IMG/VR virus record: IMGVR_UViG_3300032285_004073
Location: 62,001 to 126,000 of that record
Strand: one strand, 5' to 3'
Length of the DNA stretch: 64,000 nucleotides
DNA from: a virus
Shown: positions 1,674 to 47,238 of the stretch, piece after piece
Position numbering within the stretch: position 1 is the first letter of the stretch
How the letters are laid out: the number at the start of each line of letters is the position of its first letter
Notes under the pieces: generated by a model
The model's input: the letters and a program-made list of their open reading frames with translations, nothing else
Database searches by the model: none
Told to the model about the DNA's origin: nothing
Made by a program: the position numbers and the translations under genes

Positions 1674-2335
1674 TTGGTTTCTTTTATAGGCAACGGATTC
1701 CATTGCAAAGCTTCTGAAGTATTTGGAAAGATTTCTGCAAAAATATTTCTAATAGCTAATGCTATTTCTCTATGTTCTTTTTGCGTATCTTCTTTAGTTC
1801 TTAAATCTAAATAATGTATCCAAGATCTTAAAGTACCACTCATATATAAAGTAGTTTGTGTACAAAGAGGTAAAATCATTCTAGCGGTTTCTCTCGCAGC
1901 TCCTCTTTCTAAGAGATTATCATATAATTTAGCAGATTCTATTAAATGATTTTGTATTAATTTTAAATCTTCTTCGCCCAGTGGAAGAGTATCTGTGCTG
2001 GATTGTCTATTTTTTTCAGATTGTATTCTCAATTCAAAAGGTTCAAAATCTGTAACAGGACTATATCTTTGACTAAATTCTTGAAAAGAAAAACTTCTGT
2101 GACGAAGAATTTGAGCTGCTATAGCTCTGGATGTTTTAATTTCAACTGTAACACTAACCATTTCATATGGAGACCAGTGTTTATGTTCAATTAAATATTT
2201 TAATAATTTAGGTGCTGTCTGTGTATTTAATTGATTAGAAGGGTTGGATACCCTTGCACAATAAACCACAAAATCTTCTGGTGATAAAACACCTTCTATT
2301 ATAGGTTCTGTAATACCAACTATTCTTACTTGCAT
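1670..2335 (-). CDS. thyX: Flavin-dependent thymidylate synthase ThyX
   Basis: Makes dTMP from dUMP using FAD, NADPH and methylene-tetrahydrofolate. The 221-residue length fits the family. The ThyX signature RHRxxSxxxxSxR is present as RHRSFSFQEFSQR (about residues 78-90), preceded by the conserved HxxWSPYEM segment near residue 53-59 that forms part of the flavin site. The start overlaps the transglycosylase gene by 10 nt, so the two are translated together. With the dUTPase at 58477 it supplies the thymidine pool for replication. Confidence 0.95.
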   Translation of the reverse strand: MQVRIVGITEPIIEGVLSPEDFVVYCARVSNPSNQLNTQTAPKLLKYLIEHKHWSPYEMVSVTVEIKTSRAIAAQILRHRSFSFQEFSQRYSPVTDFEPFELRIQSEKNRQSSTDTLPLGEEDLKLIQNHLIESAKLYDNLLERGAARETARMILPLCTQTTLYMSGTLRSWIHYLDLRTKEDTQKEHREIALAIRNIFAEIFPNTSEALQWNPLPIKETK

Positions 2336-3195
2336 AAAAGGATCTCTTTAAAAAGATTAATATTCTCTTCTACATATTCTAATTGAGAATCTGATATTTC
2401 ATTTTCAAAAATATCTACCATCTTCTCTGTAATTTTATGTTCTAAATTAACATTATTTTCATAACTCTTAAGATTATATCCCATTAATACTGGATGTGAG
2501 GTATCAATTGTTTCTATAAAAGAATAAAGTTCTCCTTTATAATTTATAAATTCAGTCGGCAAACCACATCCAAGTAAATGATGTGGTTTGGTATAATCTA
2601 TAATACCATCTTCAATAAATTGTTGTAAAAGAATAGGTCTAAAAACTGAATAAGCAGTTGGTTTCCACACTTCTTTTATTCTTTTTTCATTATTAAGAGG
2701 ACTAGAAGTAATAGCTGTGAAAACATCTCTGTCCATTTTTTCTAAAGCTTGCTGCCAAAAATAATCATAACCAAAGCTAATAGCTATTTTATCTGCATGT
2801 TCTCTCATGAATAAATAGGAATCCTTTAATTCCTGGTAATTTTTTCCTTGGATAACTCCTATAGCCTTTCCGCGGAAAGTTCCTCTATCAAATTTTACTA
2901 GGAACTCTTCAAAACTCTTAATATTTGCTTCATAATTCTGAAAAACATCTGGTATTATATACTCATCCGGCTCTAATTCATAGAGCCAATTAATAAATTT
3001 ATCATGGTTATAAGCTTCACCAAGTTCATAAAGACTATTATCTAAAATAATTTTGCGTCCTAACTTTTTTGATTTAAAGAAAAAATCTCTATATTCTTTA
3101 TTTTCTTCCAATAAATGAACTAATGCATAGTCATAATCGGTTAATCCTCTGACTCTTTCCATTATTTTTAATGGTGCTTCGTGTGCTACTAACAT
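2326..3195 (-). CDS. dpdA: TGT-like guanine transglycosylase, probable DpdA (7-deazaguanine insertion into DNA)
   Basis: A protein of about 289 residues that looks like the phage tRNA-guanine-transglycosylase relatives (DpdA) which swap guanine in DNA for a 7-deazaguanine base. Visible marks are IILDNSLYELG (candidate catalytic Asp, about residue 52), a PD pair near 83, GVIQGKNYQE (TGT-like base-pocket strand with QG), HLLGCGLP (compare the LMGVG-type motif of TGT) and IDTSHP (second candidate Asp, about residue 231). No C-terminal tRNA-binding or zinc motif is apparent. A TTG at 3204 would add three residues; I prefer the ATG at 3195 because it sits 11 nt after a TATAAT box. QueE, QueC and a glutamine amidotransferase elsewhere in the window support the call. 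It is co-transcribed with thyX. Confidence 0.72.
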   Translation of the reverse strand: MLVAHEAPLKIMERVRGLTDYDYALVHLLEENKEYRDFFFKSKKLGRKIILDNSLYELGEAYNHDKFINWLYELEPDEYIIPDVFQNYEANIKSFEEFLVKFDRGTFRGKAIGVIQGKNYQELKDSYLFMREHADKIAISFGYDYFWQQALEKMDRDVFTAITSSPLNNEKRIKEVWKPTAYSVFRPILLQQFIEDGIIDYTKPHHLLGCGLPTEFINYKGELYSFIETIDTSHPVLMGYNLKSYENNVNLEHKITEKMVDIFENEISDSQLEYVEENINLFKEILLCK

Positions 3196-3206
3196 ATATT
3201 TCAATT

Positions 3207-3234
3207 ATTATACTCTATTAAGAAAATAAATCAA
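3207..3234 (-). promoter_or_regulatory. sigma70-type promoter for the dpdA-like gene and thyX
   Basis: Minus-strand TTGATT (3229-3234), 16-nt spacer, TATAAT (3207-3212). The -10 box ends 11 nt before the ATG at 3195. It lies across the 3' end of the DNA polymerase gene, so the transglycosylase/thyX pair can be expressed apart from the polymerase. Confidence 0.5.
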
Positions 3235-5791
3235 ACAAATCTGTTTGAACTTCTGTGCCTAAAGCTGGTATATCCCATCCGATACACTCATAAACTCTTT
3301 GAATAGGAGGTGCAACCATCTTATCGAACATCATTTGGTGATTAATTTTGATGTGCTCGTTGAGTTCATCTGGGTATAAATCTATAAATGCCATTACTTT
3401 ATAATTAAATGGATTTTTAGATGCATAAAAATATTTCATTTTCATACCGCTTGTAATAGATTCATGCAAATGGTCAATCTTATAATGCTTTAATAAGTGA
3501 TTATAATGAATAGCTGCCTTGGCATGAATAGGAGTTCCTTTACCAATCTTGCCAAAATCATCCATTTTAGCTTCTTGTTTTTCTAAATCTGAAATTTTAC
3601 TTCTAATAGAAAGCTCTTCAGCTTTCATTTCTTTAAATTTGTTATAAGATTCTCTAAAAATTTCATTAGACTTCTTTTTATCCTCTGAAAGCATTGCTAA
3701 TTCAATAACATTTTTAATTAATTTTTTAACAGTATCTGATATAGATGAACGAGCTACTTCAACACCTACATATTTAAAAGGGTCTTTCGGTATATAACCT
3801 TCTTTATCTAAAATATGGAGTATATACCTTTTCTTTTCCATGAAGAGACCCACGTCACAAATGGTTTCTTGTTTAAATACAAATCTAGGATCTGAAGATT
3901 TTAATTGTTCTCTAGCCCAAACTAGAATTTCTGTATTGAGATAGGTATCAATTTCTTTTGTTATTTCCCTTGCTTCATCTGTCAATTTACCATCTTCAAC
4001 AAGTTTTATATTTAAATGTGTAAGAATAGGTTGTATGGAGAAATATGCTGAATCAGTGTCACCATAAAGATATATTTTTTCTTTATCAACTTTGCAACCT
4101 TTCTTTAAGGCATATTCATAAACGATCTCAGCTGCTTGTTTAACTACAGACTGACCCGTTAACGTAATACTAGCTGAATGATCTATATCAAATAATGGTG
4201 AATATTTTTGAGCAAATACTCCATAGATGGAATTCAATACAAGTTTATAAACATTTTGTTGTGTATCTAAATTAAGAATTTCTTGTTCTATTTTATTTTT
4301 TTCATCTTTATCTTTAATAGAACGTATCAATTTCTCTCTTTTAATCATTTCATTCTTAGCCTCGACACGCTCTTTATATAAGCGATCAATCAGATTAGGA
4401 ATGACTCCTTTAAACTTTTGTGTATATAATACGTTATATTTTGATATAGAAAGATTTTCTTTTTGTACAAGTCTATTAAATTTCTCTTCTGAAAGAGTTA
4501 CGGTTTTTTCATTGGCTAATTTAATAGTATATTGTTTATCTTCTATAGTGGTTATTTTGCCTATTTTTGTCTCTGGAGATATATTAAGAGTAATGATAGT
4601 GTTGGGATATAGACTATTTGCATCATAACTTACAACAGATTTACTCAAACCGCGTTCCGGTTCATGCACATATCCTCCAACATATTCATCTCGTTCTCCT
4701 TCATTTTTAAAAGTTGGTATTTTATATCCCTGTATAAAGGCTTGATGTGCTACAGCTCCGGTAATCATGGATACTTTGCCCATGGCCTGTTCAAAAGGAA
4801 TAAAACCTTTATAAGAAAGAGTACGAATCAATTTAATAAATTTTAATTTTTCATCAAGCTTAACTAAAATTCTTACGTCCTGAATATTATAATCAACAAA
4901 CAACTCCCAATTATCAATTGATAATTGGGCAAGATTGGATCCACCTGTATCAATCTTTCCTTCTTTTAATTCATATTCACCTACATAATTAAGAGAATAA
5001 GATTCTCTATCACCTCTTGAAAAGGTTTTATAAACTTCCATGTAATCAATGTTACTCACACCTCGGATGTACCAACGATTGATCATTTTACCAAATTTAT
5101 TCATGGCCACATTCTCTCTATAATAGAGAGAATTTACCGGTGAAAGTCTAGCTGCATCTTCTTCTCCAAATAGATTATGTAATCTATTCATGATATAAGG
5201 AATATCAAATCCTTCTCCATTCCAAGTACAAAGCATATCTGGAGGATCTTTCTCCCAAAATTCTAAAAATGCTTGAAGCATTTCTGTTTCTCTTGAATGG
5301 CAAAAATAGGTTATATTTTTTTCTTTAGGTTTATAAGGTTTCTGCCCCCAAGAATAATAATGATTGTTTATAGAATCATAAAGAGTAATAAGATTAATAG
5401 GATCCTTAGCTAATTCTGGAACCGGAAATTCATTAGGAGAATAGGTTTCTATATCCAAAAAGTAAACCTTTAACGGATGCTGACCAAAGTCTAATTTGTG
5501 AATTTCATCTTTATAAGTTGAAAGAAGAAAATCCTGTTCGCAACTAAGATTATTAAATAATCTTTTAATAGGTGTCTCATTGACAAATTTACTCCTATCA
5601 AACTGATTTTTAAATGTAACTTTCTTTAACGGTGTGTTAAAGATCGAAGTAGCATCATGAGCTGATGAAGACTCAATATAAAGATGAGGTTCGTAATCAG
5701 CCACAAGCTTAATGCGATTACCTTTTTCATCCCAAGTCCAAAGATGAATAACTCCTTGTCTTCCATCATAAAAAATATTTCTCCATGCCAT
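3218..5791 (-). CDS. 43: Family-B DNA polymerase (gp43)
   Basis: Replicative polymerase with proofreading exonuclease, 857 residues (T4 gp43 is about 900). Exo motifs: FLDIETYS (D113/E115), WNGEGFDIPYI (about 190) and the YNIQD exo III element (about 301). Polymerase motifs: SYDANSLYPN (D390), the K/NSIYG helix (about 516-524) and YGDTDS (576-581). The protein ends in TDLFDLFS, a hydrophobic-acidic tail like the sliding-clamp-binding end of T4 gp43. The start ATG at 5791 is 8 nt from a TATAAT box and lacks an SD. The gene 62 and 44 clamp-loader subunits are at 47238 and 58926; gp45 is not in the window. Confidence 0.96.
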   Translation of the reverse strand: MAWRNIFYDGRQGVIHLWTWDEKGNRIKLVADYEPHLYIESSSAHDATSIFNTPLKKVTFKNQFDRSKFVNETPIKRLFNNLSCEQDFLLSTYKDEIHKLDFGQHPLKVYFLDIETYSPNEFPVPELAKDPINLITLYDSINNHYYSWGQKPYKPKEKNITYFCHSRETEMLQAFLEFWEKDPPDMLCTWNGEGFDIPYIMNRLHNLFGEEDAARLSPVNSLYYRENVAMNKFGKMINRWYIRGVSNIDYMEVYKTFSRGDRESYSLNYVGEYELKEGKIDTGGSNLAQLSIDNWELFVDYNIQDVRILVKLDEKLKFIKLIRTLSYKGFIPFEQAMGKVSMITGAVAHQAFIQGYKIPTFKNEGERDEYVGGYVHEPERGLSKSVVSYDANSLYPNTIITLNISPETKIGKITTIEDKQYTIKLANEKTVTLSEEKFNRLVQKENLSISKYNVLYTQKFKGVIPNLIDRLYKERVEAKNEMIKREKLIRSIKDKDEKNKIEQEILNLDTQQNVYKLVLNSIYGVFAQKYSPLFDIDHSASITLTGQSVVKQAAEIVYEYALKKGCKVDKEKIYLYGDTDSAYFSIQPILTHLNIKLVEDGKLTDEAREITKEIDTYLNTEILVWAREQLKSSDPRFVFKQETICDVGLFMEKKRYILHILDKEGYIPKDPFKYVGVEVARSSISDTVKKLIKNVIELAMLSEDKKKSNEIFRESYNKFKEMKAEELSIRSKISDLEKQEAKMDDFGKIGKGTPIHAKAAIHYNHLLKHYKIDHLHESITSGMKMKYFYASKNPFNYKVMAFIDLYPDELNEHIKINHQMMFDKMVAPPIQRVYECIGWDIPALGTEVQTDLFDLFS

Positions 5792-5799
5792 ATTAAGAT

Positions 5800-5826
5800 A
5801 TTATACTACCTTAATACCATTTTCAA
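5800..5826 (-). promoter_or_regulatory. sigma70-type promoter for DNA polymerase
   Basis: Minus-strand TTGAAA (5821-5826), 15-nt spacer, TATAAT (5800-5805), ending 8 nt before the polymerase ATG. It overlaps the 3' end of the 178-residue gene upstream. Consensus match only. Confidence 0.45.
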
Positions 5827-6337
5827 TGAATTCTTTTACTTCATCATCAATAATAGGATTACCTTCGTGGAGGATATCTGAAACCTTTTTATACAAATCA
5901 AAGGCTTTACGCTCGAAGAAATTTGTAGCTTTCACAAAACCTAAGGTATCAATCCAACAATTCATCTGTGGATATTGTGGTGCTGCATGAAAAATACAAC
6001 CATTGTGAAAATTACCAATCCAACAAAGAAGAAAAATAGCACCTTTAAGCTCTTTGTCTTTAACCATATATTCAAAAAATACAGCTCTTTCTTCTGGAGC
6101 TTTGCCTACATATCTATTTAATTTGGTAATATATTCTCCGTCTAGAAAGATAATAGAACGTCCTTTAGTAGTCACATGCTCTTTAAGAACTTTGACATTA
6201 TTATCATTCATATAAACCTTTCTCAAAGTAGGCCATTTTACATTTACACCTCTTGTAGAGAAAAAGGGAGACTCCTGCAAAGGCTGTCTATTCATGGACA
6301 CTTTTTTATTTTGACGAAGGTCTAATGTATTACTCAT
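5801..6337 (-). CDS. Hypothetical protein, 178 residues
   Basis: Not recognised. The first 35 residues are polar and probably flexible; the rest alternates strands and helices, with an aromatic/Cys-containing stretch around residues 104-130 (FLLCWIGNFHNGCIF, then CWIDTLGFV). No catalytic motif, signal peptide or membrane helix is evident. It lies directly upstream of the DNA polymerase on the same strand, and the polymerase promoter is inside its last codons. A weak -10-like TACTAT (6344-6349) lies 6 nt before the ATG. It may be a replication accessory protein, but nothing in the sequence proves it. Confidence 0.75.
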   Translation of the reverse strand: MSNTLDLRQNKKVSMNRQPLQESPFFSTRGVNVKWPTLRKVYMNDNNVKVLKEHVTTKGRSIIFLDGEYITKLNRYVGKAPEERAVFFEYMVKDKELKGAIFLLCWIGNFHNGCIFHAAPQYPQMNCWIDTLGFVKATNFFERKAFDLYKKVSDILHEGNPIIDDEVKEFIENGIKVV

Positions 6338-6381
6338 ACATTAATAGTATGATAAAACATTAGGAAAACCAACAAAATAAT

Positions 6382-7701
6382 TTACACCTTTTGATCCAAG
6401 TTATTTGCTATAAGAGTTGGGCTCTTTTCATTTCTTTCTTTAGATCCAAAATCTGTAAAATACAAAGCCTCATATTCATCTAAATGATCTTCTAACCAAA
6501 GACCTTCTGTAAATTTACGAGACTTATCTGAGAATTTCATATATCGATCAAAATCTGATGTGAGATATTCTAATTGCTGAATAAGATCTGATCCGTTTTT
6601 GAATGAAAAATCTGCACCCTCATATGTGCAAATATCTTGATAAGCGCCTGGCATACCAAAAGCTCCGGCTTCAATCATTTTAATATTGCTCTTAGATTTA
6701 TTAAAAACATTATCTTGGAGAGGTGCAAATGAAACATTACAGTCTGTGTCATACAATGCTTGAGGTAAATCCGGAAGAGGAGACCATTCTAGGTATTCCA
6801 TTTCACCATTATCAATATAAGGTTTAACAGCAAGAGGGAAACATCCCTTCCAAACAAATTTAAATTTCTTGCGAGCTTTAATAATATCTTGTACTACATG
6901 CTCAAAATCATCCTTCATTCCAGTTTTATTGACTACATCTATATGTGTGCCAGAACCTGCATAAAGAACGCGAGGACGCTTTTTATTTTTTTCAAAAAGC
7001 TCTATAATTCGATTTCTATTGTAGTAGCGATCAAGCCAAGATTTAGGCGCATAATTTGGAATAACTGTGATATTTTTATTGCCTGTCTTATCTATATAAT
7101 AATCTTTCATATATTGACAAGTGACGGATATTTCATCCATCATACTCATAATATCTAGAATACTAGAGATAATATCTTGACTTACAAAAGCTTCTTTACA
7201 ACGATTATAATCTGGAATATCATCTTTAAAAACTATATCGTCTACTTCATAAATCATGCGAAAACCCATATCCTTTTTAACTCTCGTAAGTTCTCTAATA
7301 AACTCTCTCTGAACTGGAGTTGCTTGTCTTTGCATTCTAATAGCCTTAATGCCTTGATAAAATCTAAGATCCAATACCATGCATGTAAGACCTGAAATAC
7401 AGGCTTTCTGATATTGATTTAAATTAAGCTCCGGCCAAATCATTCTCCAAAACCCGCATCCACCATAATCAGCATAATAATTTAGGGCTCTAGGTAAATT
7501 ACTTTCTGGCATCTCAACTGGTGGCGGAGATGGCATACTAATGGGATTGGCTGCTACATAAGAAAAATTGGGTGTTCCGTGAGGTAATGCAGGAGCATTG
7601 GGTATACCTGCACTAAATGCTTTGTATTCATAAACTATACGATTACTAGTATCAATACTATTTGAAGCAGGAGAAGCATTATTCTTAATTTTTAAAGCCA
7701 T
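6382..7701 (-). CDS. GT-B glycosyltransferase (GT4-like), 439 residues
   Basis: Probable sugar-nucleotide-dependent glycosyltransferase. The first 65 residues are low-complexity and Pro-rich. The GT-B core follows: an N-terminal Rossmann half with MIYEVDDIVF, a hinge near VIPNYAP (about 214), then the second half starting RPRVLYAGSGTH and the nucleotide-sugar site EAGAFGMP (about 345), in the place of the E-x7-E region of GT4 enzymes. Relatives annotated as glycosyltransferases occur singly in several T4-like aquatic phages. It stands alone between the polymerase block and queE, outside the two large glycan islands. The acceptor is unknown: virion protein, host glycan or modified DNA base are all possible. 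Confidence 0.8.
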   Translation of the reverse strand: MALKIKNNASPASNSIDTSNRIVYEYKAFSAGIPNAPALPHGTPNFSYVAANPISMPSPPPVEMPESNLPRALNYYADYGGCGFWRMIWPELNLNQYQKACISGLTCMVLDLRFYQGIKAIRMQRQATPVQREFIRELTRVKKDMGFRMIYEVDDIVFKDDIPDYNRCKEAFVSQDIISSILDIMSMMDEISVTCQYMKDYYIDKTGNKNITVIPNYAPKSWLDRYYNRNRIIELFEKNKKRPRVLYAGSGTHIDVVNKTGMKDDFEHVVQDIIKARKKFKFVWKGCFPLAVKPYIDNGEMEYLEWSPLPDLPQALYDTDCNVSFAPLQDNVFNKSKSNIKMIEAGAFGMPGAYQDICTYEGADFSFKNGSDLIQQLEYLTSDFDRYMKFSDKSRKFTEGLWLEDHLDEYEALYFTDFGSKERNEKSPTLIANNLDQKV

Positions 7702-7736
7702 ATAGTTAAATTTATCTATCTACTATCTAAAATCAA

Positions 7737-8495
7737 CTAGACTTTAAGGGCTTTATCCCAAACAAGAAGGTGTAATCTAGGACTAAAATTTACATGCATT
7801 GCTTTAGCATACTCTGCAACAACTGGAGCCTTTTCTATATGCTCTTCTCTAGAACCACAGCAAGGCATAAACCAAATACGGTCTCTAATTGCATTAATAT
7901 GATGCTTATCGTCAACATACTTTTCCCAAATTTCATTAATATCTTCTGATTTGTTAATAACAAATTTAAACCCTGATCCATTTCTTGCATGCCATTTAAG
8001 AACCTCTGGCTTGTAGGTTTTATCTTCTGGATCCCCGTTTGATCGGAGTTTAGGTGACGTTGTAAAAGTGGCATTAAAAGCATCTTTCCAAACTGGATCT
8101 GGCATTAAAGTAGCATTGGTTTCAAAATCAATACGCGGAACAATTTTATATTTCTCTATAAATGCTTGAATGAATTTAATTAATTGCTTCTGTTGAATAA
8201 GCGGTTCACCGCCTGTAAGCTTAAGAATAGCATTATGTGCTAAATGATTGATATAACCATTATCTTCCATAAGTTGAAAGATTTCAGCAAATGTCATTTT
8301 ATTCTTAACTGTCCAAGAAATAAATGAATCACATCCATTAGGAGAATCTTCTGAAGCAAATCCAATACACGTCAAATTACACATTGACATGCGCATAAAC
8401 ACTGAAGGTTGTCCTACAAATTCACCTTCACCTTCAATAGTATAAAAAACTTTATCATCCGACAAAAATAATGTCTCTGTATTAATATCAATCAT
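7737..8495 (-). CDS. queE: 7-carboxy-7-deazaguanine synthase QueE (radical SAM)
   Basis: Radical-SAM enzyme that converts 6-carboxy-tetrahydropterin to 7-carboxy-7-deazaguanine, the second-to-last step to preQ0. Visible family marks: YTIEGEGEFVGQPSVFMR (the QueE N-terminal strand), the iron-sulfur cysteines C39, C43 and C55, and LTGGEPL (about 93-99, the GGE motif for SAM). The cysteines are spaced CX3C-X11-C rather than CX3CX2C, with the third in the GCDS context, so the cluster loop carries an insertion. Length (252) is normal. A TATAAT box lies 8 nt before the ATG. It works with QueC (44633) and the DpdA-like enzyme (2326) of this window. Confidence 0.9.
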   Translation of the reverse strand: MIDINTETLFLSDDKVFYTIEGEGEFVGQPSVFMRMSMCNLTCIGFASEDSPNGCDSFISWTVKNKMTFAEIFQLMEDNGYINHLAHNAILKLTGGEPLIQQKQLIKFIQAFIEKYKIVPRIDFETNATLMPDPVWKDAFNATFTTSPKLRSNGDPEDKTYKPEVLKWHARNGSGFKFVINKSEDINEIWEKYVDDKHHINAIRDRIWFMPCCGSREEHIEKAPVVAEYAKAMHVNFSPRLHLLVWDKALKV

Positions 8496-8503
8496 ATGAT
8501 CAT

Positions 8504-8509
8504 ATTATA
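8504..8509 (-). promoter_or_regulatory. -10 box for queE
   Basis: Minus-strand TATAAT, 8 nt before the queE ATG. A TTGATT lies 14 nt further upstream, closer than usual for a -35, so only the -10 is convincing. Confidence 0.35.
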
Positions 8510-8525
8510 TTAAAAAGAATTTTAA

Positions 8526-10352: not shown

Positions 10353-10361
10353 TGTTTATAG

Positions 10362-10389
10362 ATTATAAAGTATTTTTATAATTTATCAA
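10362..10389 (-). promoter_or_regulatory. sigma70-type promoter for gene 46
   Basis: Minus-strand TTGATA (10384-10389), 16-nt spacer, TATAAT (10362-10367), 9 nt before the ATG of gene 46. The same stretch forms an AT-only 8-bp inverted repeat (10362-10369 with 10375-10382). This promoter lets gene 46 be made independently of the glycan island just upstream. Confidence 0.5.
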
Positions 10390-10398
10390 CTATGGAAA

Positions 10399-11642: not shown

Positions 11643-12505
11643 AAAGCATTAAATCTAGCATTAATTTTTTTTTCTAAAACATAAAATTTAGACCCTTCTT
11701 CTATTTCATCATCCCATCGATTGTGCCAATGCCATGCGAATGCACCATCAAATAATTCTACAGATTCTTGTTTTTTAAATGGATTTAAATTTGTTCTTTC
11801 AAATCCCCATTCAGAATCAAACCAAATTCCGGGCAATACAGTTAAGTCGTTTTCAGAAACTTTACTATATAGATGATTTCCCCATATGTTTGTATTTTTA
11901 TTTTTAGGAGAAGTAAGAAGGTTTTGTAATAATTCAATAGATAATGAAGATTCTTTATCTAATTTCATTATAGCACCATTCATTGTTATTGAAGGCTCGT
12001 CTGAATTGAATCCAGAAGTACCCCATTGATATAAAAATTCTAAATCAGATAAAGGAGATAGATTTCTCAAAACTAATACATCCATATCTATATAAAATCC
12101 ACCATATTTATATAATACTAAAAGTCTGAACAAATCTCCTTCAAGATAACAAAGATCATCTTGTATTTCTTGAATGTTTATTTTACCTTCTAGTAAAGTA
12201 TTTTTGGTTTCTTCTAACAAATCCCATATTTTAAAATTTACATATGAAGAAACTTCTTTAAAATATTCGTTTTCTCTTAAATCTACATTAGACCAAAGAT
12301 TTATTTCTACATCTCTATGATTTACTATTATAGATTTTAAAACAGCAAGCTGTTTTCTTCCAAAATCTTTTGGTACTCTCCAAAAACAGTGAAAAACCAT
12401 CGGAATTTCTTTTTCCTTTAAAGTTTTAGCATGTGCTAAAGATTTTAAATAGGAATTTCTGTCTGGTCTATAAAGATCTAAATTATTATTTAATATTTTA
12501 ATCAT
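11639..12505 (-). CDS. GT32-type glycosyltransferase (DXD sugar-binding family)
   Basis: A 288-residue protein with the typical GT32 layout: IPMVFHCFWRVP near residue 35 (the I-x-H-W start of these enzymes), INLWSN, then DLFRLLVLYKYGGFYIDMDV (about 145-164), the family hallmark with its DxD. A C-terminal HWHNRWD motif is also typical. The product is a transferred hexose on an unknown acceptor. Overlaps the next gene by 8 nt. Confidence 0.82.
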   Translation of the reverse strand: MIKILNNNLDLYRPDRNSYLKSLAHAKTLKEKEIPMVFHCFWRVPKDFGRKQLAVLKSIIVNHRDVEINLWSNVDLRENEYFKEVSSYVNFKIWDLLEETKNTLLEGKINIQEIQDDLCYLEGDLFRLLVLYKYGGFYIDMDVLVLRNLSPLSDLEFLYQWGTSGFNSDEPSITMNGAIMKLDKESSLSIELLQNLLTSPKNKNTNIWGNHLYSKVSENDLTVLPGIWFDSEWGFERTNLNPFKKQESVELFDGAFAWHWHNRWDDEIEEGSKFYVLEKKINARFNAL

Positions 12506-13151
12506 TTAATGCTTCGTTTTTAAAAACCATTAAAGTGTTTTTAACATGCGAACCGTTTGGTAAAAACGGATCTAAAACATTTTCAAACTTACCAACCTCT
12601 CCATGTTCATTCTCAAATCTATTATTTCTATAAGCAAAAATAGGTAATAAACTTCTTAAATTTAAAGATAAACTCTCTTCATAGGAAAAATTACTTTTCT
12701 TAAACTTATCGATCCAAAAATCAGCTACTTGGCAATTTACATGATGAAATCCGGGTTGCCCGGGTAATGCATGTGTCATTGCTACTAATTTACAACCTTC
12801 AAAGGTTTTCATAAAATTAGCACTATATTGTTCTTCTACATGTTCAACAAATTCACAACACCAAGCTAGATCATATGTTTTTTCTAAAATATAAGGAGCT
12901 TCCGTATAATCATGAATTTTAATGTGAGATTTTACAGGAGAACTTTCTATAGCATCAATAAAACCTTCTATACCTATACCTTCAATATTTTTATCTATAA
13001 AATATTTTAAAGAATGTCCCGCACCACAACCAACATCTACCATGCTTTTGATTTTAAACTTTTCTATTAAAGCATCCCAAACTTGTGGAGCCCATGTTCC
13101 GATATCATTTGATATTATACATCCTCCTAAATGTGATTTTTCTGTACTCAT
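12498..13151 (-). CDS. SAM-dependent methyltransferase (Methyltransf_23-like)
   Basis: A 217-residue class I methyltransferase. Motif I is MVDVGCGAGHSLK (about 37-49), motif II GIGIEGF (about 57-63), and YDLAWCCEFVEHVEEQY (about 91-107) matches the post-II/III region of glycan and lipid methyltransferases. HALPGQPGFHHVN is another conserved stretch of this type. Close relatives often sit beside FkbM and GT genes, as here. Substrate unknown. Confidence 0.8.
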   Translation of the reverse strand: MSTEKSHLGGCIISNDIGTWAPQVWDALIEKFKIKSMVDVGCGAGHSLKYFIDKNIEGIGIEGFIDAIESSPVKSHIKIHDYTEAPYILEKTYDLAWCCEFVEHVEEQYSANFMKTFEGCKLVAMTHALPGQPGFHHVNCQVADFWIDKFKKSNFSYEESLSLNLRSLLPIFAYRNNRFENEHGEVGKFENVLDPFLPNGSHVKNTLMVFKNEALND

Positions 13152-37482: not shown

Positions 37483-37491
37483 ATATGTATA

Positions 37492-37499
37492 TATTTATG
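37492..37499 (-). promoter_or_regulatory. Late-type promoter CATAAATA
   Basis: Minus-strand CATAAATA, 9 nt before the tail-fibre ATG at 37482. It matches the late-box family of this window. Confidence 0.45.
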
Positions 37500-37515
37500 T
37501 ATTAAAAGGTCTTAA

Positions 37516-38508: not shown

Positions 38509-38512
38509 TTTA

Positions 38513-38851: not shown

Positions 38852-38858
38852 TACGTAA

Positions 38859-38866
38859 TATTTATC
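38859..38866 (-). promoter_or_regulatory. Late-type promoter GATAAATA
   Basis: Minus-strand GATAAATA, 7 nt before the ATG of the BppU-like gene. Confidence 0.45.
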
Positions 38867-38889
38867 CTTATAGAAACTTTATTTTACTT

Positions 38890-40755: not shown

Positions 40756-40767
40756 GATATTATAATT

Positions 40768-40775
40768 TATTTATT
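40768..40775 (-). promoter_or_regulatory. Late-type promoter AATAAATA for gene 20
   Basis: Minus-strand AATAAATA, 12 nt before the portal ATG. It lies in the 101-bp divergent gap between gene 20 and the 40857 gene. Confidence 0.45.
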
Positions 40776-40840
40776 ATAGTTTACTTACTATCAACCATCA
40801 ACTTATTATATAAAATAGTTTAAAAATACAAATTTTAACC

Positions 40841-40848
40841 CTAAATAA
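40841..40848 (+). promoter_or_regulatory. Late-type promoter CTAAATAA
   Basis: Plus-strand CTAAATAA, 8 nt before the ATG at 40857. Its context TAAATAAATTATA is nearly the same as that of the diverging gene 20 promoter. Confidence 0.42.
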
Positions 40849-40856
40849 ATTATATT

Positions 40857-41189
40857 ATGAGTAAATTTTTAGATTTAGTTTATGCAACCCATCCTTTATT
40901 AAAGGAAGAAGACGAAACAAATATTGATAAGGTTGATGAACCCCTCCCTACATCAAGCAAAGAAGATTCAGCACTTCCTTCACCTAAAGATAAATCCACA
41001 GAAGTTCAATTAGTAGGATTAGCTAAGACTGCTTTATTCATTGATAAATCTCATTTAGAAGAGAGTAATCCATCAGCTCGTACTATTATTAACAGAATAT
41101 CTCAAATAGATCCTATAGATATTACTAATGTAGATCAAGTACAAAAGTTATTAGAAGAATTAATAGCTCTGGTAGAAATGCCATCGTAA
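40857..41189 (+). CDS. Small hypothetical protein, 110 residues (MSKF-type N-terminus)
   Basis: Starts MSKFLDLVYATHPLLKEED, one of several N-terminal helices of the MSxKFxxLV kind in this window. An acidic, Pro/Ser-rich linker follows (about 20-50), then a helical C-terminal part (about 75-110, VDQVQKLLEELIALV). LKE at 15-17 fits the (L/I)-x-E rule for prohead-protease cleavage. It has a late-type promoter. Possibly an internal head protein; unproven. Confidence 0.65.
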   Translation: MSKFLDLVYATHPLLKEEDETNIDKVDEPLPTSSKEDSALPSPKDKSTEVQLVGLAKTALFIDKSHLEESNPSARTIINRISQIDPIDITNVDQVQKLLEELIALVEMPS

Positions 41190-41206
41190 TATAGTTGATA
41201 TTAATA

Positions 41207-41225
41207 CCTACTACCATAAAGTAGG
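41207..41225 (+). promoter_or_regulatory. Hairpin directly before a start codon
   Basis: CCTACT (41207-41212) pairs with AGTAGG (41220-41225) around a 7-nt loop, ending 2 nt before the ATG at 41228. There is no T tract, so it is not a terminator. It could affect translation of the following gene. Confidence 0.3.
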
Positions 41226-41227
41226 GT

Positions 41228-41503
41228 ATGACCGAAAAGGTTTATAATCTTAATAATTTAACTCAAAACCAAATTAAATTAATTCTTGAAGCTTTGCTTT
41301 ATGCTGGTTCTGTCGACATTAACAGTGCCTGGTATAAAGAAGAAATAGAAAATATGGTTGATTTGGCTATTGATATTAGAAAAATTTCTTCTAATATTCC
41401 TTTAGAAAGTATATACGCCTTTGAAGAAGAATATTTTGATTCAACTACTAAAAAAATTGTTGAATTCTTTCCAGAGATTTTATATAATAAACCAAATTTA
41501 TGA
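41228..41503 (+). CDS. Small hypothetical protein, 91 residues
   Basis: Not recognised. Acidic and helical, with LTQNQIKLILEALLYAGSVD near the N-terminus. Similar short phage proteins with an N-terminal L-x-x-x-Q-x-x-x-I-x-x-A-L-L pattern exist but carry no function I can name. Its stop overlaps the ATG of the P-loop kinase gene (ATGA), so the two are co-translated. Confidence 0.6.
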   Translation: MTEKVYNLNNLTQNQIKLILEALLYAGSVDINSAWYKEEIENMVDLAIDIRKISSNIPLESIYAFEEEYFDSTTKKIVEFFPEILYNKPNL

Positions 41504-42132
41504 AAATAGCTGTTTCAGGTGCTCAAAATACTGGTAAGTCAACTTATATTAAAGACTTTTTAAAAAAATGGACCATGTATGAAACTCCTAAAGAATCCTA
41601 CAGAGATCTTCTTAAGGAAAAAAATTTACCTCATAGTACAGAAGGCAATGAAGAATCTCAAAGAATTATATTAGATTTTCTTATTGATCAGTGTCAAAAA
41701 TATTCTAAAGAAGATAATGTAATTTTTGATAGATGTGTATTAGATAATTTAGCATATTCATCTTGGTTAAATCTTAATGGAAAGGTTTCTGATAAATTTC
41801 TAGATGAATCTAGAATTATTGTAAGAGAAACATTAAGCATGTTTGATATTGTTTTCTTTGTACCTTTAACTAAAGTAGCCCCTATTGATATAGAAGAAGA
41901 TGGATTAAGAAACACAGACCCTGTGTTTAGAGAAGAAATTGATAATATCTTTAAAGTATTTGAACAATCTTACCATCAAGGTGATGGGAGAGTGTTTCCT
42001 AAAAATGACAGTCCTCCTATTATAGAAATTTATGGTAATCCAGAACAAAGAATAATGCTTACAAGTCTTTATATCAATGAAGACGGTAAACAATACGGTG
42101 AAGAAGAAACTTTAATTAAGCCCGCCTTCTAG
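41500..42132 (+). CDS. P-loop kinase/ATPase (AAA_28/NadR-like)
   Basis: A 210-residue nucleoside-kinase-type protein. Walker A is VSGAQNTGKST (about 5-15), FDRCVLDNLAYSSWL (about 76-90) has the D-R pair that binds the substrate phosphate in such kinases, and IVFFVPLTKVAPI (about 117-129) ends the core. Its closest relative in the window is the protein at 56295-56840, with the same order of motifs. T4-like phages use such folds as nucleotide or cofactor kinases; the substrate is unknown. Confidence 0.75.
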   Translation: MKIAVSGAQNTGKSTYIKDFLKKWTMYETPKESYRDLLKEKNLPHSTEGNEESQRIILDFLIDQCQKYSKEDNVIFDRCVLDNLAYSSWLNLNGKVSDKFLDESRIIVRETLSMFDIVFFVPLTKVAPIDIEEDGLRNTDPVFREEIDNIFKVFEQSYHQGDGRVFPKNDSPPIIEIYGNPEQRIMLTSLYINEDGKQYGEEETLIKPAF

Positions 42133-42145
42133 GTAAGTAAAAGAA

Positions 42146-42970
42146 ATGTCTAAATTTAATCTTCTTGTAGAAAATATCTTAACCGATCTTAATGAGGGTC
42201 GTATCCCTAAATCTGCTCAATATTCTAATATTGAAATAGATGCATCTTCATTTGCTTCTAAATTAGAAGCAGGAGACATGAATGAATTTATTGAAGCATG
42301 GTCTTCCAAAAAATGGCTTGGCGGATTGTCTCAAGAAAGAATTAAAGACATTCTTAAAAATATAGCAGACGATTTAACAGAATATCCCCCACGTTCATTT
42401 ACAGAACTTTGGTCTCAAATTGAAACTAAAGTCAGAGATGCTATTCCTACACGCAAAGATCTTGTAGAAAAAATTACAAGACAGATTTCCAATCTATTAA
42501 CTAATCCAGCATTTGGATTGACAAAAACAGTAGAAGCTCCAGCTGCAACAGAACATGAAGGTGAAAAGGAAGAAACTTCAAAGACAGTAACAGATGAAAG
42601 TGAACTTTCAGAAGTTGCAGAAAAAACTTTGGAATATATTCGCCAAGCAGAGGAACCTTCGGAGGAAAGTGATGTTGTAAAATATATTACAAGTTCTTTC
42701 GGAAAAGAAGAAAATGAAGCAAATGATGTTATTAAAGAATTAATTGCTAAGAAATTAGTAGAAAAACAAGGTAATACATTGGTTGCCAAAGAAGAAGAAG
42801 GCGGAGCTATCTTGGATACAGACGAGGAACCAGAAGAAACAGGTGACCCAGTACATGATGCCGAATTACGCAGATCCAGAGCATTAGAATATGATCCAGA
42901 TGTAGAAGCTGCTTATAGAGAGTATCTCTCTACGGATTATTCTTCCGATAATTATAACTACAACGATTGA
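42146..42970 (+). CDS. Hypothetical protein, 274 residues (MSKF-type N-terminus)
   Basis: Begins MSKFNLLVENILTDLNEGR, again of the MSxKFxxLVExIL type, with candidate prohead-protease sites LVE and LNE. Residues 35-130 are helical. An acidic stretch (about 132-160) leads to a winged-helix-like block (about 170-222, VVKYITSSFGKEENEANDVI, then KELIAKKLVEKQG) and an acidic tail ending YNYND. It could be a DNA-associated head protein, but the function is not established. Confidence 0.65.
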   Translation: MSKFNLLVENILTDLNEGRIPKSAQYSNIEIDASSFASKLEAGDMNEFIEAWSSKKWLGGLSQERIKDILKNIADDLTEYPPRSFTELWSQIETKVRDAIPTRKDLVEKITRQISNLLTNPAFGLTKTVEAPAATEHEGEKEETSKTVTDESELSEVAEKTLEYIRQAEEPSEESDVVKYITSSFGKEENEANDVIKELIAKKLVEKQGNTLVAKEEEGGAILDTDEEPEETGDPVHDAELRRSRALEYDPDVEAAYREYLSTDYSSDNYNYND

Positions 42971-42995
42971 TATTCCGTTTAATTTATAATATAAT
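42967..42995 (+). promoter_or_regulatory. sigma70-type promoter for the primase gene
   Basis: Plus-strand TTGATA (42967-42972), 17-nt spacer, TATAAT (42990-42995), 6 nt before the GTG start at 43002. With this spacing the first transcribed base would be at the start codon. Confidence 0.5.
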
Positions 42996-43001
42996 ATACA
43001 G

Positions 43002-43964
43002 GTGAGACAATTACCTGGTAGTTATATTTTAAATAAATTTTACACCTATTCAGGTGCGCCTGTGCATAACAAATATACAGGCATATATAATGCTTCGTGT
43101 CCAGTTTGTAGAGAAGGCAAAAGTTTTTTAAAAAAGAAAAGACTATACTATTATCCTACTACTAATACATTTTATTGTTTTCATTGTAGCAAATCTTGGA
43201 ATGCATTTAATTGGATAGAAGCTGTAAGTGGTATGTCTCGAGAGGAGATAGAAGCAGAAGTCTTATCAGGCAATACTTCTTTAGATATAACAGATGATAT
43301 TAAAAATATTAAGACAAAGAAAAGAGAATTACCTTCTTTGCCTTTAGATTCTATTAATCTTTGTGACCCCTTACAAAAACAATATTACGGAACTAATGTT
43401 TATTTTCAAAAAGCACTAGAATATATTACAGAAAGAAAATTAAACACAGCAATTAATCGTAGTTCTTCTTATTTTATAAGTCTTACAGATTATTTTCATA
43501 AAAATAGACTTTGTATACCTTATTATAATAGAGATAAAAAAATTGTATTTTATCAAACAAGATCTTTAGATGGTTCAGAACCTAGATACCTTAACAAAGT
43601 AGGATATGATAAAACTATTTTTGGAATAGACAGGGTAGATACTTCTTTAGATTATTTATTTTTATTCGAAGGTCCTATGGATGCCATGTTTGTAACTAAC
43701 GGAGTATCTGTAGCCGGTCTTGTATTAACCAATGAGCAAGAAAAACAATTAATAGAGTTTCCCTTTCATGAAAAAATCTGGGTTTTGGATAATCCTAGAT
43801 TTGATGAAGCTGCCAAAGATAATATTTATAAATTAGTATCTAACAAACAAAAAGTCTTTAAATGGCCTGCTAATAAACCATATAAAGACTTTAATGAATG
43901 GTGTGTTAAAGAAAATGTAAATTCAATAGATTACAATTTTATTTTAAAAAATTTGTATTCTTAA
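43002..43964 (+). CDS. 61: DNA primase (gp61-like)
   Basis: Makes RNA primers for lagging-strand synthesis. The 320-residue protein has an N-terminal zinc ribbon, CPVC (about 32-35) and CFHC (about 58-61), followed by a TOPRIM domain with FLFEGPMDAMFV (about 222-233) holding the catalytic Glu and WVLDNPRFDEAA (about 262-273) with the Asp. T4 gp61 has the same plan and size (342). It uses a GTG start directly after a TATAAT promoter. The helicase partner gp41 was not seen in the window. Confidence 0.9.
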   Translation: MRQLPGSYILNKFYTYSGAPVHNKYTGIYNASCPVCREGKSFLKKKRLYYYPTTNTFYCFHCSKSWNAFNWIEAVSGMSREEIEAEVLSGNTSLDITDDIKNIKTKKRELPSLPLDSINLCDPLQKQYYGTNVYFQKALEYITERKLNTAINRSSSYFISLTDYFHKNRLCIPYYNRDKKIVFYQTRSLDGSEPRYLNKVGYDKTIFGIDRVDTSLDYLFLFEGPMDAMFVTNGVSVAGLVLTNEQEKQLIEFPFHEKIWVLDNPRFDEAAKDNIYKLVSNKQKVFKWPANKPYKDFNEWCVKENVNSIDYNFILKNLYS

Positions 43965-44605
43965 GAAGTGACAGATTGTTCTTGATCTCTTAACTTTTTA
44001 GGAGCTGTAATAATAAATGAATTTAATACTTCTTTTAATTTATCCAATTCACCTGTGGTACGAGTAATATTGTCAGAAGATTTACGCATGATACCACGAA
44101 GTAAACTTCCAGCCTTATCATTATCTGATAAAAATTTGTGTAAAGAATCTATTTTAGGATCATTTAATCTAGCAGTAAATTCATCTAATATATTTGACCA
44201 CTTTTCAATTTCTTCAATATTTTTGCTTATAACTTCTGCCGGAATACCTTCAATTTCATATGCATCTTTTGGTGTTTCTGGTTCTAATGATTTTTCAAAA
44301 GCTTCTTTGTCAGATTCTGGAGTAAACTCTTCTGGAGTTTTTTCATCCGGTTCAGATTCTGGTGTAATTTCTTTTTCTTCTGCTTCGCCGATTAAATAAG
44401 ATAAAAATCTGCCAGCAAATGGAATTTCATAATTTTCCTCATGACAACAATTGCAATCTCCTATACATTTGCACATGGGTTTGTAATTTGAATCTAGTAT
44501 TCTTTTTACATCCTTTTCCACCTTTGAATTCTTAGCTGGTATAACATTTTTTACAGAATATTTTTTCTGTGCTTTAGGTTTAAATTTGACTTTCTTGTTG
44601 TTCAT
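43961..44605 (-). CDS. Hypothetical protein with Cys cluster and acidic linker, 214 residues
   Basis: Not recognised. A basic start (MNNKKVKFKPKAQKKYSVKN) is followed by CKCIGDCNCCHEE (about 45-57), five cysteines and a histidine that could bind zinc. A Glu/Pro-rich linker (about 75-115) and a helical C-terminal domain (about 118-205) come next. It lies on the opposite strand to its neighbours and overlaps the primase stop by 4 nt, with its 5' end facing queC. A -10-like TATATT 6 nt and a GTAAATAT box 16 nt before its ATG are both present. Confidence 0.65.
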   Translation of the reverse strand: MNNKKVKFKPKAQKKYSVKNVIPAKNSKVEKDVKRILDSNYKPMCKCIGDCNCCHEENYEIPFAGRFLSYLIGEAEEKEITPESEPDEKTPEEFTPESDKEAFEKSLEPETPKDAYEIEGIPAEVISKNIEEIEKWSNILDEFTARLNDPKIDSLHKFLSDNDKAGSLLRGIMRKSSDNITRTTGELDKLKEVLNSFIITAPKKLRDQEQSVTS

Positions 44606-44626
44606 CGTTAGAATATATACTATATT
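44598..44626 (+). promoter_or_regulatory. sigma70-type promoter for the queC operon
   Basis: Plus-strand TTGTTC (44598-44603), 17-nt spacer, TATATT (44621-44626), 6 nt before the queC ATG at 44633. It overlaps the 5' end of the opposing gene. Confidence 0.42.
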
Positions 44627-44632
44627 TACCTT

Positions 44633-45349
44633 ATGAGTGTCAAAAAACCAAAAGCAATTGTAATTTATAGTGGTGGTTTAGATTCTACGTGTCTTTTATA
44701 TAAAATTCACAAAGATAGAGAAGTTATAGCATTAATCTTTAATTATGGACAAAGGCATTCCATTGAAATAGACAATGCAATTAATAACTGTAAGAAATTA
44801 GAAATACCATATAAGGTATTAGACATTTCTTTCTTTAAAGATATAGCATCTTCCTCTGCTTTATTGGATTATAATAAAGAAATTCCCAATATCAGGGATA
44901 TAGCAGGTCATGCCCAACCTCCGACCTATGTCCCTAATAGGAACATGATGTTTTTATCAATTGCCACAGCAGCTGCAGAGTCAGCAGGGGCAGATAAAGT
45001 TTATTATGGAGCAGCTGAGGTAGACACCCATAGTGGTCATTGGGATTGTTCTTTAGATTTTTTAAAATATATTAATGAAACTATTTCTCTTAATAGAGAA
45101 CATCAAATCAAAATAGAAGCACCTTATATAACATATTCTAAGGCAGATATTATTAAAGATGGTATTAGTAATAATGTAGATTTTAATAACACCCATACCT
45201 GTTATAAGGGTGAAGAAATTGCATGTGGCACTTGTACAGCATGTTCTTCTCGTATTCAAGGTTTTCTTGAGGCTGGATATATTGATCCTAAACAATATGT
45301 AATATCAGATAAAATACCATGGAAAGATCACAACTGCCAAATCGTATAA
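44633..45349 (+). CDS. queC: 7-cyano-7-deazaguanine (preQ0) synthase QueC
   Basis: ATP-dependent amidation/dehydration of 7-carboxy-7-deazaguanine to preQ0. The 238-residue length fits. Motifs: PP-loop VIYSGGLDSTCL (about 10-21), PTYVPNRNMMFLSIA (about 101-115), and the zinc knuckle CYKGEEIACGTCTACSSR (about 187-204) with four cysteines. It heads an operon with a glycosyltransferase-like gene, a class-II glutamine amidotransferase and a DUF366-like gene. In Crenarchaeota a fused amidotransferase-QueC protein (Gat-QueC) makes archaeosine; here the two parts are separate genes. Confidence 0.93.
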   Translation: MSVKKPKAIVIYSGGLDSTCLLYKIHKDREVIALIFNYGQRHSIEIDNAINNCKKLEIPYKVLDISFFKDIASSSALLDYNKEIPNIRDIAGHAQPPTYVPNRNMMFLSIATAAAESAGADKVYYGAAEVDTHSGHWDCSLDFLKYINETISLNREHQIKIEAPYITYSKADIIKDGISNNVDFNNTHTCYKGEEIACGTCTACSSRIQGFLEAGYIDPKQYVISDKIPWKDHNCQIV

Positions 45350-46008
45350 AAACACAGCATATTGTTTGTGCTACACCTCTTTCTCTAGAAGATTTTTATG
45401 AGAAAAGCCAATTGGGTTTATTTATAGACAAATATAATTTCCAAAAACAAAGCACAATAGTAGCTAACAACAAAGAAGGATTGCCTAAAGTTTACAATTC
45501 TTTTATAACTGAAGAAAACAGAGACAAAAATATTATATTTGTTCATGATGATGTTCTTATAGAAGATCTTTTCTTTGCCGAGAAATTAGAAATTGCTTTT
45601 GAGAAATATGATATTATAGGATTAGCTGGTTCTAAGGTTTGTGATTTAGATAGCATTAACCCGGCTTGGCATCAAATGTGTGAAAAGAAAGACATGGTCG
45701 GAGAAGTAGCACATGCTCATAATAAAAAAGTATGGACTTCTGTATTTGGACCTACAGATTCTAGAGCCCTTATTCTTGATGGATTGTTTATAGGTGTCAA
45801 TGTTGCTCGCTTATTAAAAACACAAACATTTTTTGATGAGGATTTTGATTTTCACCATTATGATATTTCTTTTTGTTTAAAAGCCAATGCTAATAAATTA
45901 AAAATGGGTGTAGCTCCGATCAGGGTTATTCATTTTGGATTAGGTGATAGTATGAATACAAAAGAATGGAGAGAGAGTGCAGCTCGTTTTAAATTAAAGT
46001 ATAATTGA
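45319..46008 (+). CDS. Glycosyltransferase-like protein (Glyco_tranf_2_5-like)
   Basis: A 229-residue GT-A-like protein. NKEGLPKVYNSFITEENRDK (about 51-70), then NIIFVHDDVLIED with the H-D-D metal motif, GLAGSKVCDLDSINPAW (about 100-116) and FHHYDISFCLKAN (about 178-190) match the StrF-type glycosyltransferase family. It overlaps queC by 31 nt and no later start codon is available. Its place between queC and the amidotransferase raises the question of whether it acts on a modified base or only travels with the operon. Confidence 0.75.
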   Translation: MERSQLPNRIKTQHIVCATPLSLEDFYEKSQLGLFIDKYNFQKQSTIVANNKEGLPKVYNSFITEENRDKNIIFVHDDVLIEDLFFAEKLEIAFEKYDIIGLAGSKVCDLDSINPAWHQMCEKKDMVGEVAHAHNKKVWTSVFGPTDSRALILDGLFIGVNVARLLKTQTFFDEDFDFHHYDISFCLKANANKLKMGVAPIRVIHFGLGDSMNTKEWRESAARFKLKYN

Positions 46009-46011
46009 TTT

Positions 46012-46665
46012 ATGTGCGGAATATACGGAAATATAAATCATGCTGAATTTTATAGACTTTACAAATTAAATAAATCTCGTGGCAGTTATAGTACTGGGTT
46101 TCTTTTTATTGATAATAAAGAATATGAAGTGAAGAAAACCAATGAAGATGTTTCTTATTATCCTATAGCTTTAAAAAAATATTATTTAGGACATAACAGA
46201 GCCCCTACTACAGATGAAAATGGCAAAGGATTGACTGGTTGTCACCCTTTTATCTATGGTAAAGCTATAGCAGCTCATAATGGTATTATTTCCAATACAG
46301 ATATTTTAGAAAATGAATATAAAATTAAATTTGATGTAGATAGTCAATGGATACCTTTTCTTTATGATTATTTTAAAAGGAATAATAATCAATCAGAAAA
46401 TGCATTCCGTCTCGCTTTATTGGAATTAGAAGGAACATATGGAATTTGGCTTTATGATATAGATGAAGAAATTGTATTTGTATCAAGAAGTGATAATACA
46501 GTTTACTGGGATGATGAAAAAATATCCTTTACATCCATTAGAGATGATATGCATAAAAATTTAATGCCGCAGGGCGCTATTTACAAAAAAGAAAATAATG
46601 AACCGTTTAAAGATATAAACGAAAACAATAGGTTGAATATTAAACAGAAGTATTTTATTATATAA
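46012..46665 (+). CDS. Stand-alone class-II glutamine amidotransferase (Gat-like)
   Basis: A 217-residue Ntn-hydrolase domain. The nucleophile Cys2 follows the start Met (MCGIYG), with SRGSYSTGF (about 22-30), GHNRAPT (60-66, the GHTRWAT equivalent), HPF (78-80) and AAHNGIIS (87-94, oxyanion Asn-Gly). These are the residues of GlmS/AsnB-type glutaminase domains. No synthase domain is attached, so ammonia must be passed to a partner, and QueC, encoded two genes upstream, is the obvious one: Gat and QueC together form an archaeosine synthase in some archaea. Conversion of a preQ0 base to the amidine (G+) is therefore proposed. Confidence 0.82.
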   Translation: MCGIYGNINHAEFYRLYKLNKSRGSYSTGFLFIDNKEYEVKKTNEDVSYYPIALKKYYLGHNRAPTTDENGKGLTGCHPFIYGKAIAAHNGIISNTDILENEYKIKFDVDSQWIPFLYDYFKRNNNQSENAFRLALLELEGTYGIWLYDIDEEIVFVSRSDNTVYWDDEKISFTSIRDDMHKNLMPQGAIYKKENNEPFKDINENNRLNIKQKYFII

Positions 46666-46668
46666 GTT

Positions 46669-47238
46669 ATGAGTTATTTTAAACAAGATTACAATGGTGA
46701 TTTAATCCACAAGAGATTTGGATACGAGCATTTTAAAAAAGATTATAATCCCTTAGGAGTTATTATTGCCTTTAGAGGCAATATGGATGTTACAACCAAT
46801 CTCATTGATTTAGAAGATAAAATTAATAATGATTTTATTTATTCAGATGATGCTTTAAACTTTTGCTGGGAAATCCCTAATATTTGTCCTATCGGTGCAG
46901 TTTTCTTTCAGAGACTTTTTGCTCGTTATATCGGAGATGAATTAGCTAGCGGTCGTTATGGAAAATTAAATGTTAAGGTAGATGGAGATGATATAATGAT
47001 CATTAGACCAGGCGACGCAAAGTACGGCAAAGCTAGTGTTAGTATTACTATGGTTACTAATAATGCAGCAGTAGGACATCTTGGTTTAAATATTAAAGCA
47101 GGACCTAAGGCTCCTACCTTTGCATTTTCACTCTTATTAGATGATGCAGATACTGCTTGGCTAACCAATAGAGTTAAAGAAATATTTTATGAGACTATTA
47201 AAGATTGTTTCACCGCCACTACAAAGGTTTGTGTTTAA
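46669..47238 (+). CDS. DUF366-like protein, possibly part of the 7-deazaguanine pathway
   Basis: A 189-residue protein that resembles archaeal DUF366 by remembered pattern: FKQDYNGDLIHKRFGYEHF at the start, GVIIAFRGNMDVTT (about 30-43), LIDLEDKIN, FIYSDDALNF, FFQRLFARYIGDEL (about 79-92), a GDD segment (109-111), KASVSITMVTNNAAVGHLGL (about 121-140) and NIKAG. No function of DUF366 is established that I know of. It is sealed into the queC/Gat operon (3 nt gap) and overlaps gene 62 by one base. Possible roles are preQ0 or base modification, transfer, or DNA recognition. Confidence 0.62.
   Translation: MSYFKQDYNGDLIHKRFGYEHFKKDYNPLGVIIAFRGNMDVTTNLIDLEDKINNDFIYSDDALNFCWEIPNICPIGAVFFQRLFARYIGDELASGRYGKLNVKVDGDDIMIIRPGDAKYGKASVSITMVTNNAAVGHLGLNIKAGPKAPTFAFSLLLDDADTAWLTNRVKEIFYETIKDCFTATTKVCV

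Follow-up and report, generated by a model that had tools for sequence, protein, structure and literature searches.

Genes for a predicted 7-deazaguanine modification of DNA in an uncultured T4-like phage, with a stand-alone glutaminase and a DUF366 protein linked to QueC

Does a phage that encodes a transglycosylase-like protein together with enzymes of preQ0 synthesis replace guanine in its own DNA by a 7-deazaguanine base, and what might the genes packed around its queC contribute? The question is raised by a stretch of 64,000 nucleotides, hereafter the window, which corresponds to positions 62001-126000 of the 176,807-base virus record IMGVR_UViG_3300032285_004073 (NB: coordinates are those of the window unless given as genome positions). 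Because the nearest isolates by major capsid protein, which are cyanophages, are only about 35% identical, the phage is assigned to an uncultured T4-like lineage. A first-pass annotation of the window had named a TGT/DpdA-like protein, QueE, QueC, an amidotransferase and a DUF366-like gene as a base-modification pathway. QueE, QueC and DUF366 are real, in that each matches its family profile in Pfam or PHROG (Table 1).

Table 1. Predicted pathway genes and their neighbours (window positions unless marked genome)
Feature	Position	Strand	Basis
queD	genome 61516-62079 (5' end = window 1..37, likely ATG at window 37)	-	PTPS profile
thyX, flavin-dependent thymidylate synthase	1670..2335	-	Pfam Thy1, E=4.7e-50
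DpdA-like DNA guanine transglycosylase, predicted	2326..3195	-	homology to immuto/CP220 proteins, AlphaFold fold, neighbours
QueE, 7-carboxy-7-deazaguanine synthase	7737..8495	-	PHROG 2076 (QueE-like), E=8.6e-42
QueC	44633..45349	+	Pfam QueC, E=1e-58
Glycosyltransferase-like gene (GT)	45319..46008	+	between QueC and Gat; Pfam Glyco_tranf_2_5, E=1e-8
Gat, stand-alone class-II glutaminase, predicted nitrogen donor for QueC	46012..46665	+	family profile
DUF366 protein, predicted QueC-pathway partner	46669..47238	+	Pfam DUF366 (PF04017), E=1.7e-21

The transglycosylase-like protein and its relatives

Sequence searches with the 2326-3195 protein were uninformative, the profile check giving no TGT match in Pfam and the sequence searches of the PDB nothing useful, so that a comparison of structures was needed. 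The protein was read from the ATG that matches the start of its homologues (the list of open reading frames has a TTG start at 3204) and modelled with AlphaFold (AF2) from 42 aligned sequences, with a mean pLDDT of 92.7. As modelled, it has the fold of tRNA-guanine transglycosylases: the 44 best PDB structure matches of the model are all TGTs, with E values from 1.9e-8. In an hhalign comparison with E. coli Tgt, of low overall probability, the IQG, HLLG and D234 motifs, whose residues are conserved across the family alignment, fall on IQG, KPRYLMGVG and FDCVMP, respectively; the last of these contains the catalytic Asp of E. coli Tgt.

Relatives were found by tblastn in Flavobacterium phage immuto (4e-47, 37.5% identity), where the protein is annotated as a DNA guanine transglycosylase, and in Campylobacter phage CP220 (4e-40, 37% identity), where it is annotated as hypothetical; genes for such proteins lie on no fewer than 562 viral contig stretches. 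In the fetched flanks of 82 DpdA loci, genes of the preQ0 pathway (QueE, QueD, QueC, FolE or QueF) lie near most; QueF is present at 56 (counted within 10 kb of DpdA), QueE at 25, QueD at 24, and QueC and FolE at 16 each. In immuto and in Bacillus phage BSP7 the relatives stand inside preQ0 gene clusters. The modelled fold, together with relatives that are annotated as DpdA or lie beside preQ0 genes, bears out the earlier description of the protein as TGT/DpdA-like. The subfamily name DpdA3 reportedly goes back to Cui et al. 2023; we take the Firehammervirus transglycosylase to be DpdA3, and the 2326-3195 protein would then be DpdA3-like by homology to it. In a small profile search the BSP7 relative (L239, gp057, 11896-12684, annotated as 'hypothetical') came out as a distant family member (E=1e-23); it adjoins genes for QueC, QueD, QueE and FolE.

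The tree of DpdA proteins sets a ThyX-linked group without QueF, to which the window belongs, apart from a QueF-linked group (split support 95/85). ThyX adjoins DpdA in most of the ThyX-linked loci and is thus a conserved neighbour in the clade of the window, whereas the CP220 DpdA groups, on a long branch, with the QueF-linked clade, sister to that of the window.

Supply of preQ0 and the QueC of the window

Neither folE nor queD had been recognized in the window by the first-pass annotation. For queD this is an edge effect, as the gene straddles the left edge of the window and has its 5' end within the first bases; the PTPS family match lies at genome 61597-61974 (E=9.2e-15). For folE the earlier statement holds, and can be extended: the PF01227 profile found none in the whole 176,807-base record, itself possibly incomplete, nor did phmmer with the FolE proteins of CP220 and immuto as queries. 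Thus, of the two genes to be sought in the rest of the genome, queD was found and folE was not, and since FolE was not found in the record, this step is probably supplied by the host. A phmmer search for QueF, which covered this genome and the G006 and G008 tiles, detected no homologue.

The spread of the genes over 45 kb, which had been singled out as a peculiarity, is confirmed as such, but it is not unusual. In CP220 the pathway genes are spread over about 97 kb, in the order QueE (13 kb), DpdA (55 kb), QueD (64 kb), QueC (101 kb) and FolE (109 kb); a scattered layout is therefore ordinary for a T4-like deazaguanine phage. Adjoining QueE, at 6382-7701, is a gene for a glycosyltransferase-like protein (PHROG 7162, E=4.2e-22). 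Outside the window, the genome has a gene for a heme oxygenase (Pfam E=1.7e-12) and, directly behind it, one for a ferredoxin-dependent bilin reductase (E=6.3e-22) at genome 163812-165016 (L008:812-2016), a pair known from cyanophages, to which this genome is only distantly related. It also has a PurA-like adenylosuccinate synthetase of 332 aa (genome 17381-18379, L002; Pfam E=8.6e-80), for which a search of tiles from related phages gave no homologue, and an APS-kinase-like gene (genome 10330-10872, L002; Pfam E=2e-45).

In a motif alignment based on the signature given in PMC13329287, the window QueC retains SGGxDS, YxQxHxxE, VPxRN and all four zinc cysteines, with HWDC in place of the canonical YPDC; most phage relatives have [HNY]WDC/G. 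As Tyr131 of the YPDC motif is essential in E. coli QueC (PMC13329287), the reaction could differ, and because this motif is absent we place the protein in the QueC family and not as a canonical QueC. A recent QueC family survey mentions queD and queE among the neighbours of the canonical gene; the term DUF366 does not occur in it. The QueC proteins of L113, L123 and L145 (QueF-linked or group-2 phages) have lost three of the four zinc-binding cysteines and still have the P-loop, YxQxHxxE and VPxRN motifs.

A glutaminase and a DUF366 protein linked to QueC

The amidotransferase and DUF366 had been listed as additions to the pathway. Both genes are real, but linkage in phages, in Vibrio phage nt-1 and in bacteria makes them look like partners of QueC rather than add-ons. 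Gat gives a weak match when searched alone (GATase_6, 1.9e-5); its family profile matches the glutaminase domain of GlmS (E=3.6e-14), the closest solved relatives of Gat, and the family conserves Cys2 together with the HPF, HNG and Asp motifs. A PDB search with the GT that separates Gat from QueC gave no informative match. QueC, GT, Gat and DUF366 are close together in 16 loci including the window, with few departures from that order. Elsewhere among the DUF366-carrying phages, QueC, Gat and GT lie between UvsX/RecA-like and gp41-type helicase genes (assigned by reading the sequences), and since the trio occurs at this second site with DUF366 elsewhere, the three genes move between genome sites as a group.

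Compact clusters in other viruses (L191, L201, L221 and L228) also have a stand-alone Gat that follows QueC and overlaps it by stop and start codons; the clusters of L191, L201 and L228 hold QueE, QueD, FolE, DpdA and QueF. In nt-1, ORF392, annotated as hypothetical, lies directly behind QueC and overlaps it, and belongs to the Gat family of the window (E=3.5e-20, eleven proteins searched). From its gene neighbourhoods, Gat would thus look like a stand-alone partner of QueC, and its presence in clusters that also hold QueF makes it more likely that it feeds QueC generally than that it marks archaeosine as the product.

DUF366 scores 77.0 bits against a gathering cut-off of 29.9, and 444 stretches of viral contigs encode relatives. 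QueC is present in 14 of the 18 records searched; of the four without it, three are shorter than 50 kb and one is a 91-kb record fetched through DpdA. In the phages DUF366 always lies just upstream of the same UvsW-containing gene block, whether or not QueC is adjacent, and in group-2 phages it is located away from QueC. As, in addition, tblastn found no DUF366 in any Campylobacter record, the protein is not essential to such systems.

The linkage is also seen in bacteria. Among 117 sampled genomes of one bacterial class, DUF366 is found in 55 and QueC in 91, and QueC accompanies DUF366 in all 55, although these genomes are related and the counts are not independent. DUF366 is directly downstream of QueC in 38 of the 55, as counted from coordinates, and the 31 pairs that were fetched all overlap or lie at most 104 bases apart, a 4-base overlap being the commonest arrangement. 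Both DUF366-positive control archaea have QueC as well. The bacterial QueC proteins examined from DUF366-positive genomes form one clade (100/97), which includes one member with no DUF366 found; they are a divergent subtype without the YxQxHxxE motif and with F(P/S)DN replacing YPDC. A single QueC lineage shared by phages and DUF366-positive bacteria was considered and rejected: the tree separates the two, so that one shared type of QueC cannot explain the linkage. With TGT in nearly all of these bacterial genomes and QueF in most, the bacteria probably make queuosine. A record deposited as 'Microcystis phage MaAM05' (L012, MW495066.1) has the order glyS, penicillin-binding-type gene, DUF366, membrane-type protein, almost identical to that of Vampirovibrio MAG contigs L234, L237 and L238, and looks bacterial rather than phage.

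The best PDB match of the DUF366 model is 2ddz, the DUF366 protein of Pyrococcus horikoshii (no assigned function), followed by biotin and lipoate ligases, with E values from 5.5e-6. The model thus has a biotin/lipoate-ligase fold, which it shares with 2ddz (TM about 0.81); in sequence, 2ddz belongs to the same family (E=1.1e-36 with a profile built from phage and bacterial members). There was no significant sequence match to E. coli LplA or BirA; DUF366 is accordingly not classed as a ligase, and a candidate assignment of catalytic residues through the LplA/BirA comparison was dropped as not significant. Within the literature searched, subscription literature lying outside its scope, no paper names DUF366, PF04017 or COG2029. 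That DUF366 travels with QueC in both phages and bacteria suggests that it is a so far unassigned part of the deazaguanine pathway, and we would place its role at the QueC step or close to it.

Proposed pathway, rival explanations and known systems

What the analysis shows is the genes themselves, the TGT fold of the modelled protein, the conservation of the linkage and the fold of DUF366; the pathway proposed for them is as follows. GTP would be opened by a FolE of the host, and phage QueD and QueE would lead to 7-carboxy-7-deazaguanine. This would be converted to the amide and/or the nitrile (ADG, preQ0), and possibly further to archaeosine (G+), by QueC with ammonia from the separate glutaminase Gat, DUF366 probably acting at or beside this carboxylate-to-amide/nitrile step. 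The DpdA protein would exchange guanine in DNA for the resulting base, which should shield the phage DNA from host nucleases. Judged from the gene content, guanine in the phage's own DNA is very probably replaced, completely or in part, by a 7-deazaguanine base. As phmmer found no QueF homologue in the genome, the final base is likely preQ0, ADG or G+ (dPreQ0, dADG or dG+ in DNA). We give a probability of about 85% to the reading as a whole, that is, a T4-like phage that modifies its own DNA with 7-deazaguanine by means of host FolE, its own QueD, QueE, QueC and Gat, and DpdA, with DUF366 as an additional partner in the QueC pathway. This supports the first-pass annotation, whose predictions came out right where tested (a DpdA-like protein with the TGT fold, QueD outside the window, FolE not found).

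The phage genes might instead only boost queuosine in host tRNA, the 2326-3195 protein acting on RNA or supporting the host TGT. Its fold is that of the tRNA enzymes, and where phages have preQ0 genes and lack DpdA such boosting has been suggested (PMC6884629). In sequence, however, no TGT comes close to the protein, and its family is embedded in phage preQ0 clusters and has a member in the Firehammerviruses, whose DNA is modified, which leaves this explanation a very slim chance. A final base of preQ1 or one of its derivatives, which is the prediction for relatives linked to QueF, is improbable: QueF is frequent near DpdA and preQ1 could come from a host QueF, but the phmmer searches for QueF were negative and the window DpdA falls in the separate ThyX-linked clade.

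Two further alternatives concern the genes next to QueC. Gat and GT could form a surface-glycan or amino-sugar pathway that lies there by chance, an idea that draws on the kinship of Gat to GlmS, the GT between QueC and Gat, and the sugar genes nearby in DUF366-carrying relatives. The stop/start overlap of Gat with QueC in compact preQ0 clusters and nt-1, and the joint movement of QueC, Gat and GT between sites, argue against it, and we regard it as unlikely. Somewhat more weight, although still well short of favour, is due to the proposal that DUF366 is a general housekeeping gene of the phage clade and of bacteria, unrelated to 7-deazaguanine, given its constant position upstream of the UvsW block and, in Vampirovibrio MAGs, beside glyS and a penicillin-binding-type gene. 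It is opposed by the adjacency of DUF366 to QueC in the 16 phage loci, by the independent occurrence of DUF366 behind a different QueC lineage in bacteria, and by the QueC of both control archaea. A stronger version of the pathway role, which we put forward as a tentative possibility at less than even odds, is that DUF366 belongs, unrecognised so far, to the core enzymes of 7-deazaguanine synthesis. It would work with certain types of QueC in archaea, some bacteria and phages, for instance by activating the carboxylate or transferring an acyl group when preQ0 is formed, and in these phages it would make up, with the separate Gat, a synthase of several proteins for preQ0 (or archaeosine).

One of the closest known parallels to the DNA modification proposed here is the dADG system of CP220 and the Firehammerviruses, whose DNA is reported to be highly modified with dADG in place of dG (PMC6884629). 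CP220 shares with the window a T4-like genome, the homologous DpdA, QueD, QueE, QueC and ThyX and the scattered layout; it differs in having its own FolE, and in that no Gat or GT of the window type was found in the CP220 stretches searched. Immuto likewise has QueC, QueD and QueE, but in a compact cluster with FolE, QueF, formyltransferase-like and thymidylate kinase-like genes that predicts a preQ1 derivative; homologues of its QueF, FolE and formyltransferase were not found in the genome of the window. Phage nt-1 is also T4-like, with a QueC about 41% identical and, directly behind it, a stand-alone Gat of the same family. The transglycosylase of nt-1, DpdA2, is longer and of a different kind, and the DpdA profile of the window family does not hit it; the phage also has FolE and a reported ArcS homologue. 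Finally, in the Gat-QueC (archaeosine synthase) of phage 9g and archaea a class-II glutaminase is likewise paired with QueC, but the two are fused, whereas in the window they are separate genes, QueC first and GT between. Gat and QueC of the window may thus work like Gat-QueC by analogy, as distinct from being members of it.

The core system is therefore of a known kind, and the parts that look new are the stand-alone Gat partner and the link between DUF366 and QueC. A large clade of uncultured T4-like phages joins those predicted to carry deazaguanine DNA, and a relative of the same transglycosylase occurs in Campylobacter phages whose DNA is modified. The glutaminase identity of a 'hypothetical' protein of nt-1 may bear on the coexistence of dPreQ0, the main modification, with dG+ and dADG in the DNA of that phage (PMC6884629), and DUF366 gains a testable role.
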